A DNA stretch of 64,000 nt from Enemella dayhoffiae (GTDB lineage Bacteria > Actinomycetota > Actinomycetes > Propionibacteriales > Propionibacteriaceae). This document shows positions 5,914 to 25,711 of the stretch, piece by piece (the first letter of the stretch is position 1; every line of letters begins with the position of its first letter). The translations under genes were made by a program, and so were the position numbers. A model generated the notes under the pieces. The model saw nothing but the letters and a program-made list of their open reading frames with translations, did not search any database and was not told where the DNA came from. The stretch is taken from positions 186,001 to 250,000 of the forward strand of contig NZ_NMVQ01000023.1 of assembly GCF_002250625.1 (NCBI RefSeq), given 5' to 3'.

Positions 5914-7038
5914 ATGGTGTTCTCAGACGATCAGGTACCCGGCACGGGGGTCTTGTCGTCTGGCAACGTGTCGCTTTTGCGGCCGGCGGAGCAGTTCTTC
6001 GATGAGATGGTGGCGGGCTGGTCGGCACAGCAGACCTCGCGGATGCTCGCGGTGCAAACCATCAAGACCAGGGCCTCGCGGGTACGCCGGTTCGCGGACT
6101 TCTGCAACGCCCCGCCGTGGGAGTGGTCACCGGCTGACGTGGAGGAATGGACAACCTCGCTCGTCTCCGGACCGCGGCCGCTGTCTGTGTCGACGGTGCG
6201 GGCCTATCAGAACTCCGTGGCGCTGTTCTGCGACTACCTGGTCGATCACCGCTACGGCTGGGTCGATCGCTGCGTCGATCTGTTCGACACGCATCCGGTG
6301 CAGGTCTGCCACGAGTGGAACACGGTCATCCATACCAGCGACCACGAGGCACGGCCGGACGTGCGACCGCTCTCGCGGGATGAGCTGCAGATGTTCTTCG
6401 ACTACGCCGATGACCTGGTGGATCAGGCCCGCTCCTCCAAGCGCAAGGGATGGCTGACGCTGTTCCGCGACGCCACGCTGTTCAAGATGATCTATGCGTT
6501 CGGGTTGCGTCGGCGCGAGGCAGCGATGCTCGATCTGCCGGACTTCACCCGCAACCCGCAGGGCTGGGAGTTCGGCCGGTTCGGGGTCTGCAACGTCCGC
6601 TGGGGCAAAGCGATGCGCGGCTCGCAGCCGCGCCGCCGGGCGGTGCTGGCCGTGTTCGGGTGGACCCGGCCGGTGATCGAGGAGTACGTGAGCGAGGTTC
6701 GGCCTCGGTTCGACCTTGCCGACAAGACGATCCTGTGGCCGACCGAGCGACAAGGGCGCATCCGGCTCAAGCACATCGACGACCGGTTCGCCGAGTGGCG
6801 CGATGATCTCGGCCTGGACCCGTTGCTGCACCCGCACTGCTTGCGGCACTCGTATGTGACGCATCTGATCGAGGACGGCTACGACCCGTTGTTCGTCCAG
6901 CAGCAGGTCGGGCACCGCTGGGGCTCGACCACCGCCCTCTACACCGGGGTCTCCGGTGACTACCGCAACCGCACCCTGCGCCGCGCTCTCGACGGCGCGT
7001 TCACCCCACCGACAGCGATCGAGGGAGGATCACGATGA
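5914..7038 (+). CDS. Tyrosine recombinase/integrase (trio gene 1)
   Basis: This 374-residue protein has an N-terminal SAM-like core-binding domain (residues ~20-110) and a C-terminal catalytic domain. The catalytic set is visible: Arg in FGLRRREAAML, the HCLRH box, the GHRWGS histidine and the Tyr in TALYTGVS. It should cut and rejoin DNA, probably at the repeats just upstream. Start ATG 5914 directly follows those repeats. Its stop overlaps the next gene by ATGA. From memory, such recombinase-HTH-zinc protein trios occur next to resistance genes in Gordonia, Rhodococcus and mycobacteria. Confidence 0.88.
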   Translation: MVFSDDQVPGTGVLSSGNVSLLRPAEQFFDEMVAGWSAQQTSRMLAVQTIKTRASRVRRFADFCNAPPWEWSPADVEEWTTSLVSGPRPLSVSTVRAYQNSVALFCDYLVDHRYGWVDRCVDLFDTHPVQVCHEWNTVIHTSDHEARPDVRPLSRDELQMFFDYADDLVDQARSSKRKGWLTLFRDATLFKMIYAFGLRRREAAMLDLPDFTRNPQGWEFGRFGVCNVRWGKAMRGSQPRRRAVLAVFGWTRPVIEEYVSEVRPRFDLADKTILWPTERQGRIRLKHIDDRFAEWRDDLGLDPLLHPHCLRHSYVTHLIEDGYDPLFVQQQVGHRWGSTTALYTGVSGDYRNRTLRRALDGAFTPPTAIEGGSR

Positions 7039-23578: not shown

Positions 23579-23785
23579 GTGGCTCGCCGCTATGAACGGA
23601 AGACCGGGCAGCGCCAGCAGAGCGAACGCGAGCTGACGATCCGGGCCGAGTTCCACGAACCGCCGGACCTGGACAAGCTCTGCGAGCTGCTGATCCGCCT
23701 GGCGCTCCAGCAATCGGGCTCGTGCCGCTCAGAGGGCACGACGCGCCCGAAGCGCCCTCGTGCCACGGCGAGCACGTCGTCGTAA
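23579..23785 (+). CDS. Small basic ICE protein
   Basis: A 68-residue protein from GTG 23579, 3 bases after the previous stop. The core EFHEPPDLDKLCELLIRLAL is helical and resembles a frequent small partner of the preceding protein; both ends are basic and disordered. Function unknown. Its stop codon overlaps a TAAAAT box that may be the promoter of the RNA that follows. Confidence 0.5.
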   Translation: MARRYERKTGQRQQSERELTIRAEFHEPPDLDKLCELLIRLALQQSGSCRSEGTTRPKRPRATASTSS

Positions 23786-23788
23786 AAT
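23783..23788 (+). promoter_or_regulatory. Possible -10 box before the structured leader
   Basis: TAAAAT stands out in GC-rich DNA and lies about 6-8 bases before the first hairpin of the RNA element. No clear -35 is seen. Confidence 0.4.
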
Positions 23789-23793
23789 GTAGG

Positions 23794-23916
23794 CATCCGT
23801 CGCGGATGGCGGATGTTGTGGTCCTAGCGCTTCGCCACCCCGGCGAGGCAAAGTAAACGTGGCCGACTCGGCCTAGTCCTACAGCCTTCGGGCTCTTCTC
23901 ACGATCAACATCCGCC
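23794..23916 (+). ncRNA. Candidate structured RNA before the serine recombinase
   Basis: A closing stem GGCGGATGTTG (23808-23818) / CAACATCCGCC (23906-23916), 11 perfect pairs, encloses three hairpins: GCTTCGCC/GGCGAGGC (23829-23849, one G-U pair), GGCCGA/TCGGCC (23861-23873) and AGCC-TTCG-GGCT (23883-23894, UUCG tetraloop). Upstream, CATCCG/CGGATG (23794-23808) touches the closing stem and could compete with it. A TAAAAT box lies just before, and the recombinase ATG is 46 bases after. It could be a regulatory leader or a small RNA; I cannot match it to a known family. Confidence 0.6.
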
Positions 23917-23962
23917 GTCACACCGTCCGCGTCGGCAGGACCAGTGACTGTGGAGAAGAGCC

Positions 23963-25642
23963 ATGACGATCATCGACGCGGACCGAACCGCGATAGACAG
24001 CCTCGTATCACCAACACCGTTCCCCGGATCGTTCGCCGTCTCTTACCTGCGGGTCTCCACGAAGGAGCAGGCGGAGAAGGGCGGCCAGGCGGAGGGATTC
24101 TCGATCCCGGCGCAGCGTGAGGCGAACCAGCGCAAGGCCGACCAGCTCGGAGCGACGATCATCGAGGAGTTCGTCGATGCGGGCGAGTCGGCGCGCAAGG
24201 CCGACCGGCCCGAGCTGATGCGGATGATCCAGTACGTCGCGAAGCACAAGACGAACTACTGCATCGTCCACAAGGTCGACCGGCTGGCCCGCAACCGAGC
24301 CGACGACGTGACCATCCATCTCGCGCTCAAGGACGCTGGCGTCACGCTGGTGTCGGCCACGGAGAACATCGACGAGACCCCATCAGGGATGCTGCTGCAC
24401 GGCATCATGTCCTCGATCGCGGAGTTCTACTCCCGCAACCTCGCGACCGAGGTCGTCAAGGGCCTGTCGCAGAAGGCCGCGCAGGGCGGCACGGTGACGA
24501 AGGCACCCATCGGCTACCTCAATGTCGGTGTGCGCGACGAGTTCGGGCGGGAGGTACGCACCGTCGAGATCGACGAGGAGCGGGCGCGACTGGTCCGGTG
24601 GGCGTTCCAGGTGTTCGCCTCCGGTGACTGGACGACCAGCCAACTCCACCAAGAACTAGTGGCGCGCGGGCTCACGACAGCGGCGTCGCCGCGACGGCCA
24701 TCTCGACCCATCGGGAAGTCGTCCGTGCATCGGATGCTGACGAATCCGTACTACAAGGGCAGCGTCCGCTACCAGGGCGTCACCTACGCCGGAGCGCACG
24801 AGGCCATCGTCCCGAACGAGGTGTGGGATCAGGTGCAGACCGTGCTCGGCACGCACCGCTCGGCCGCCGACGCGACGCAAGTGCACGAGCACTACTTGAA
24901 GGGGACGGTGTTCTGCGGGCAGTGCGGTTCGCGGCTGCTGGTGTGCAACGCCAAGAGCAGTCAGGGCACGATCTACCCGTACTTCGTGTGCGCCAGCCGG
25001 CATGGTGGCAGAGGCGACTGCACCCGGCAGGCGATGCTGATCGAGCAGGTCGAACGCCTCGTCGAACGCTTCTACGCCAAGGTCCAGCTCGACCCCGAAA
25101 CGACGCAGGCGGTCTCGGCGATGCTCCATGCCAGGTTCGACGAGATGATGGCGGAAGGAGCCGCCGAACTCACTGACCTGGCGACACGAAGAACCCAACT
25201 CGAAGGCGAGCAGCACAAGCTGCTCCAAGCCCACTACGCCGGAGCCATCCCGCTCGATCTGCTCAAGAAGGAGCAGGACCGGATCACTGCGTCGCTGGAG
25301 ACCATCGAGCACCGGATCACCGCTCACCACGGCCACTACGCTGACGCGCGTGCGAACCTCGACGACTCGCTGAAACTGCTGTCGAACGCCGCCGACCTCT
25401 ACGAGCACGCCGACGACGCGAACCGCAGGCTGTGCAACCAAGCCCTGTTCAAGGCGATCTACATAGATGAGGACAACGACGTGCGCGTCGGCTACCGGAA
25501 CCCGTACGACGGGCTGAGTGTCCCCGGCCTCCACGCCGACGCCCTGAGCTGGGCCGCCGAGGCGAAGAAAATGGGCCAGGCGGGAACCGCGACCAAGGGT
25601 GGCCCCTTGGTCGCAAGTTCACACCTGACCCGTTTGGGGTGA
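23963..25642 (+). CDS. Large serine recombinase (ICE integrase)
   Basis: A 559-residue recombinase. The N-terminal resolvase domain (residues ~20-170) has the catalytic Ser in VSYLRVSTKEQ, then DAGESARKADRPELMRMI, HKVDRLARNRADD and MSSIAEFYSRNLATEVVKG. A recombinase domain follows (KAPIGYLNVG, SVHRMLTNPYYKGSVRYQG), then a zinc ribbon (VFCGQCGSRLLVC, CTRQ) and a long coiled coil (~395-480). It should integrate and excise the ICE. The last residues (VASSHLTRLG) read to the tRNA-His 3' end, suggesting that the tail was set by the integration site. GGAG is 9 bases before ATG 23963. Confidence 0.93.
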   Translation: MTIIDADRTAIDSLVSPTPFPGSFAVSYLRVSTKEQAEKGGQAEGFSIPAQREANQRKADQLGATIIEEFVDAGESARKADRPELMRMIQYVAKHKTNYCIVHKVDRLARNRADDVTIHLALKDAGVTLVSATENIDETPSGMLLHGIMSSIAEFYSRNLATEVVKGLSQKAAQGGTVTKAPIGYLNVGVRDEFGREVRTVEIDEERARLVRWAFQVFASGDWTTSQLHQELVARGLTTAASPRRPSRPIGKSSVHRMLTNPYYKGSVRYQGVTYAGAHEAIVPNEVWDQVQTVLGTHRSAADATQVHEHYLKGTVFCGQCGSRLLVCNAKSSQGTIYPYFVCASRHGGRGDCTRQAMLIEQVERLVERFYAKVQLDPETTQAVSAMLHARFDEMMAEGAAELTDLATRRTQLEGEQHKLLQAHYAGAIPLDLLKKEQDRITASLETIEHRITAHHGHYADARANLDDSLKLLSNAADLYEHADDANRRLCNQALFKAIYIDEDNDVRVGYRNPYDGLSVPGLHADALSWAAEAKKMGQAGTATKGGPLVASSHLTRLG

Positions 25643-25660
25643 GTAACGGGACTTGAACCC
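25630..25660. other. Probable ICE attachment site (att) at tRNA-His 3' end
   Basis: The tRNA 3' end and T-arm mark the switch from element to chromosome. Only one att copy is in the window, so the core cannot be defined; it should recur at the far left end of the element. Confidence 0.5.
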
Positions 25661-25711
25661 GCGGCCTCCTGGACCACAACCAGGCGCTCTGCCAGCTGAG
25701 CTATACCCACC
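25635..25711 (-). tRNA. tRNA-His (GTG)
   Basis: On the reverse strand the cloverleaf is complete: acceptor GTGGGTA/TACTCAC with the tRNA-His-specific extra G at -1 opposite C73, D-arm GCTCAGCTGGCAGAGC, anticodon stem CCTGG/CCAGG with loop TTGTGGT (anticodon GTG), T-arm CGGGTTCAAGTCCCG, encoded CCA. Its 3' end overlaps the recombinase stop by eight bases, so it is the likely attachment site of the ICE. Confidence 0.95.

Follow-up and report, generated by a model that had tools for sequence, protein, structure and literature searches.

The gene for a large serine recombinase (LSR), the integrase of an ICE, is preceded by a structured leader which, judged by sequence comparison, forms a new family of cis-regulatory RNA and most likely restrains integrase translation by sequestration of the Shine-Dalgarno (SD) region. 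The leader would be about 165 nt long and extend from a sigma-70-like promoter, from which we infer the transcript start, to the LSR ATG. Some 100 loci from several actinobacterial orders have it ahead of their LSR gene. A first-pass annotation of this DNA had proposed either a regulatory leader controlling integrase synthesis or a small RNA of the ICE. The comparison of homologs strongly supports the former: the element lies in cis to an LSR in 31/31 cases, runs from a -10 box to the start codon, exceeds a tree-preserving null in its pairing and includes a pairing of the SD region.

Anatomy and genomic setting of the leader

The features of the locus are listed below, with coordinates in the window, i.e. 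the whole stretch of 64,000 nucleotides that was analysed.

23579..23785 (+), small ORF of 68 aa (...LTIRAEFHEPPDLDKLCELLIRLALQ...), stop codon inside the -10 box; similar ORFs occur upstream of other LSRs
23760..23788 (+), promoter-like pair GTGCCA-17-TAAAAT, a sigma-70-like match
23794..23808 (+), P0', upstream hairpin CAUCCG-UCG-CGGAUG, alternative to P0 (fold prediction; a hairpin is present here in most lineages)
23797..23807 (+), outer helix P0, 5' strand (cognate/mixed-strand test, full-length alignment)
23808..23818 (+), closing stem P1, 5' strand GGCGGAUGUUG, 11 bp (two-sided changes, tree null)
23819..23825 (+), PK1, 5' strand UGGUCCU (A-like lineages)
23829..23849 (+), hairpin P2 (fold prediction, alignment)
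23861..23873 (+), hairpin P3 (fold prediction, alignment)
23883..23894 (+), hairpin P4 with UUCG loop, 3' strand overlapping the anti-SD (fold prediction, alignment)
23891..23900 (+), anti-SD GGCUCUUCUC, perfect complement of 23953-23962 (cognate tests)
23906..23916 (+), closing stem P1, 3' strand CAACAUCCGCC, 11 bp (two-sided changes, tree null)
23925..23935 (+), outer helix P0, 3' strand (cognate/mixed-strand test, full-length alignment)
23937..23943 (+), PK1, 3' strand AGGACCA (full-length alignment)
23952..23962 (+), SD region and spacer GGAGAAGAGCC (pairing tests, accessibility prediction)
23963..25642 (+), LSR (Resolvase PF00239, Recombinase PF07508 and Zn_ribbon_recom PF13408, above cut-off)
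25635..25710 (-), tRNA-His; its 3' end and that of the integrase meet here, at the insertion site (tRNA detection, relatives)

The elements described in the first-pass annotation can be read directly from the sequence: the TAAAAT box at the start of the element (23783-23788, +), the 11-bp closing stem around three hairpins, one of them UUCG-looped (P1 to P4), the competing upstream hairpin, which is P0', and the integrase ATG at 23963, 46 bases 3' of the closing stem. The long-range outer helix P0, PK1 and the anti-SD/SD pairing are additions to that structure. The impression of more structure than expected between two genes proved correct: the folded 180-nt stretch 23783-23962 has an MFE of -77.2 kcal/mol (z = -3.4), whereas dinucleotide shuffles average -62.2 +/- 4.4 and only 1/200 of them folds as low. 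Over 21 homologous lineages, the mean folding z is -2.3.

The leader is placed between a promoter-like sequence and the start codon of a single gene. Within 450 bp, GTGCCA-17-TAAAAT is the sole match to a promoter, and shuffled sequences give a mean of 0.0. Aligned homologs carry a -10 box of the form TA(G/A/C)AAT, which served to extract these leaders, at the equivalent place and extend to the start codon. In L103/L104, the most distant of the clades with a leader, this position reads TATCCT/TAACCT.

Genes to the left of the integrase encode a TraG/VirD4-type coupling protein, an SSB and VirB4-like, SCO6880 and SCO6881 proteins, and the label of ICE (type IV secretion) therefore holds. A tyrosine integrase gene (5914-7038, +) located left of the conjugation genes may correspond to a second recombinase, either within the ICE or adjacent to it. 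At the other side, the integrase ORF and the 3' end of tRNA-His share 8 nt. The search for direct repeats at the ICE ends identified no second tRNA-His 3' end in the window or the genome; serine att cores can be very short, and this negative result therefore carries little weight. A tRNA gene (His, Ala, Val, Leu or Lys) is found at the integrase 3' end in 30 of 33 scanned relatives. Members of the broad actinobacterial LSR family (L031-L110 and L142-L171) are located at the 3' ends of His, Ala, Val, Leu, Lys, Arg and Ile tRNA genes, and two LSRs (L145 and L152) at tmRNA. Ghinet et al. 2011 (PMC3218068) described tRNA genes as rare targets of serine recombinase integration.

ORFs related to the small ORF 23579-23785 precede other LSRs, both with and without leader (by eye). 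Its 68-aa product has no NCBIfam match; it is a candidate partner of the leader and a candidate directionality factor.

Distribution among relatives and conservation of the pairings

The protein search retrieved 80 LSR loci with 55-98% identity from many actinobacterial genera, including Tessaracoccus, Leucobacter, Microbacterium, Arthrobacter and Brevibacterium but also Actinomyces, Saccharomonospora, a Nocardioides and a Bifidobacteriaceae MAG. At the DNA level, the leader was matched in 37 of the 199 genomes of the family, some over short stretches only. The leaders of a Granulicoccus (L032) and a Leucobacter (L033) are identical, which indicates recent transfer. A covariance model of the core of the leader (R1) matched in 34 of 393 genomes of the order and in 2 of 396 genomes across the phylum, with an LSR directly downstream in each of the 31 matches extracted as loci. 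LSRs below about 55% identity are devoid of leader by inspection. The leader therefore belongs to a single LSR clade. It has no match in the plasmid collection, and LSR relatives of at least 60% identity were found in neither the plasmid nor the phage collection.

The genome from which the window comes carries a second, partial LSR (58% identity; L167, G000 contig C43:12015-13112) without leader. In L018 and L051 the leader is cut before P3 and fused to coding-like DNA that is unrelated to it and looks TIR-like by eye, and these natural deletion variants have lost the promoter, P0 and the P1 5' strand. P3 is missing from a shortened clade (L106-L110).

Conservation of the pairings was assessed on several alignments. 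On a sequence-only alignment of 24 leaders, 87.4% of the P1-P4 cells are paired compared with 40-55% when the partners are slid by 1-3 columns. Two-sided changes affect 14 of the 24 pairs (5.7 +/- 1.5 in shuffles) and, within P1, 8 of 10 pairs have changed on both sides. These are the compensating changes in the closing stem to which the first-pass annotation had pointed as potential support. Two full-length alignments reach 94.6% and 95.4% paired cells, against 39-57% when slid. Under a null model preserving the tree and the substitutions per branch (200 simulations per alignment), the means are 69.6, 76.0 and 72.7% paired, and the observed value was reached in 0/200 simulations for all three alignments; the count of two-sided pairs exceeds this null only in the first alignment (A1). 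Compensatory changes also back the inner hairpins and the long-range outer helix. For P0', two-sided changes are countable in one alignment (A4), where there are none. A test on hand-picked hairpins is selection-biased and carries little weight.

The expected covariation among homologous leaders is upheld by the closing stem and by the structure-specific tests, but not by a general scan of 57 leaders (G-test with APC, tree-simulated null), in which no pair reached significance, probably owing to the weight of two deep clades in the set. Structure-specific and alignment-free cognate/mixed-strand tests were used instead. In the alignment-free version, windows were defined by sequence anchors in 25 lineages and each strand was paired with its cognate or with strands of other lineages. 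Cognate strands pair better for P1 (-14.7 vs -10.8 kcal/mol), for P0 (-23.5 vs -19.6) and for SD/anti-SD (-21.3 vs -16.3), with a permutation p<=5e-5 in each case. PK1 gives p = 0.07 over all lineages and is good only in A/B-like lineages. Helix cells contain 122 G-U against 33 A-C, which points to folding of the plus-strand RNA.

The pairing of the SD region is conserved and is written with different letters in divergent lineages. Here, GGCUCUUCUC (23891-23900) perfectly complements GAGAAGAGCC (23953-23962), covering most of the RBS GGAG and the spacer. The pairing has been remade in L025 (GGCUUCUUCUC/GAGAAGAAGCC), L095 (GGCUCUUUCA/UGAAAGAGCC), L106 (GGGUCGUGUUUCC/GGAAACACGACCC), L103 (CCUCUCGUCGG/CCGACGAGAGG) and L105 (UUCACAGUUC/GAACUGUGAA), and over 26 lineages the cognate combination beats the mixed one with p = 2e-5. 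With wide windows, other stretches of the leader pair in isolation with the SD window equally well or better in some lineages; the anti-SD is therefore favoured by its recurrence and covariation and not by energy alone. The 12 nt preceding the start are predicted to be mostly paired, with mean unpaired probabilities of 0.00-0.36 across 21 lineages.

Proposed control of integrase translation

Predictions on the growing transcript favour P1 together with P2, P3 and P4 at lengths of 130-155, with P0 from 145, while the predicted nested optimum once the SD is present consists of P0' and the SD/anti-SD helix. The anti-SD shares sequence with the 3' strand of P4, as P0' does with P0 (and, in other lineages, with P1). 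The two sets of pairings, P0 + P1 + P4 and P0' + SD/anti-SD, overlap in prediction and would probably exclude each other, as expected of a translational switch.

We consider it probable that the leader operates as such a switch. It would form the untranslated 5' end of the integrase mRNA and control translation in cis, with transcription starting about 7 nt 3' of TAAAAT. The emerging RNA would fold into P0 and P1 around P2-P4, locking part of the anti-SD in the UUCG hairpin P4. Once the RBS has been made, the anti-SD (23891-23900) may pair instead with the SD and spacer (23953-23962). This helix would exclude P4, as well as P1 unless a pseudoknot forms, and would leave P0' free to form. Integrase translation would be OFF in the SD-paired state and ON in the P0/P1/P4 state, the balance being set by a signal that could be a ligand, a protein or folding kinetics, and the ICE would thereby keep its recombinase scarce while integrated. 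We infer both the state that dominates in cells and translation as the regulated step. P1 and the SD helix may also coexist as a pseudoknot, and the two-state picture would then be incorrect in its details. A more specific proposal, which we put forward tentatively as quite possible, is that the leader represents a riboswitch-like class sensing a specific cellular or ICE-derived signal to switch integrase translation.

A simpler reading, which appears doubtful, is a constitutive brake, in which the leader would cover the SD at all times and the alternative pairings would be by-products of folding. It agrees with the SD pairing being the most recurrent feature and with the fact that no signal for switching is known. 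However, a plain SD hairpin would suffice for this function, whereas P0, P1 and the inner hairpins have been kept over deep divergence and overlap the partners of the SD helix. Autoregulation is unlikely: the integrase or the upstream small protein would bind the P1 core and fix the SD-closed or SD-open state. Such binding would fit the strict linkage to one LSR clade and the related small ORF adjoining the leader in several clades, but this ORF also accompanies leaderless LSRs, and an RNA-binding domain was found in neither the LSR nor the small protein.

The second proposal of the first-pass annotation, a free small RNA of the ICE, is not supported and very improbable. The element does have its own promoter-like sequence and a compact fold, but no plus-strand terminator was found, and the leader ends at the start codon and runs into the ORF, pairs with its own SD and is not found away from an LSR (31/31 in cis). 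Serine recombinase att sites and operators contain inverted repeats near int, but an attP or operator whose repeats mimic RNA stems is extremely improbable here. The tRNA, and with it the insertion end, is on the far side of int, the helices have preserved G-U in far more cases than A-C, and the partners are interleaved, up to ~140 nt apart and, for one helix, cover the SD.

Two other candidates were rejected. The frame of a possible leader peptide at the P1 5' strand (AUG UUG UGG UCC UAG) is lost in other lineages (by eye). Sensing of tRNA, suggested by the tRNA-sited LSRs, is contradicted by distant leaderless LSRs that also adjoin tRNA or tmRNA genes, so that the presence of the leader is not tied to tRNA targeting.

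Discussions of how ICE excision is controlled usually centre on transcription factors and directionality factors. An RNA hiding the integrase RBS would add a translational layer to this control across several actinobacterial orders and, if the leader is indeed riboswitch-like, the movement of a tRNA-targeting ICE family would depend directly on an RNA sensor. The anatomy of the leader predicts the effects of compensatory SD/anti-SD and P1 mutants.

Comparison with known RNA families and elements

The leader is absent from Rfam and from the open-access literature searched. The Rfam search suggested in the first-pass annotation assigned it to no family: Rfam 15 recognises two tRNAs only in the window, with no match to the leader at the gathering score, and at E<=10 a single 16-bit minus-strand match to the leader (E = 1.2), taken as chance. 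No leader match was obtained on relatives either. An Rfam ALIL pseudoknot (RF01497; L059 36-164, +) precedes the Brevibacterium casei leader by about 3.7 kb. Among the open-access papers searched, none describes a structured serine-integrase leader. The leader would constitute a new RNA family for Rfam.

The hallmark of T-boxes is an invariant UGGN for the tRNA 3' end. Actinobacterial T-boxes act on translation and the integrases studied here are located at tRNA genes, but a T-box riboswitch (RF00230) is not supported: the model gives no match, and the UGG following P1 is UGA in L059/L060 and hence not invariant.

PreQ1-II and SAM-II are examples of translational riboswitches and SD-sequestering leaders. 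The integrase leader shares with them a position in the 5' leader, a conserved fold, predicted alternative pairings, an SD paired with an upstream anti-SD and a likely pseudoknot. It differs by having no Rfam match, by preceding a serine integrase and by a ligand that is possibly absent. Ribosomal protein genes have autogenous leaders, which are likewise structured and tied to one gene family, whereas here the gene is a recombinase and any protein binding is hypothetical.

The nearest published motif by theme is STAXI (PMC2864571), a repeated simple pseudoknot found near integrase and SSB genes; the integrase leader, in contrast, is a single long leader ending at the start codon. As in the present element, a serine recombinase integrates at a tRNA gene, in that case tRNA-Leu, in actinobacterial AICEs (PMC3218068). 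The present element, however, is a type IV secretion ICE with relatives at many different tRNA genes, and the AICE paper nowhere uses the word 'leader'. A member of none of the families that could be tested, the leader appears to work in a manner similar to translational riboswitches and to autogenous leader RNAs.
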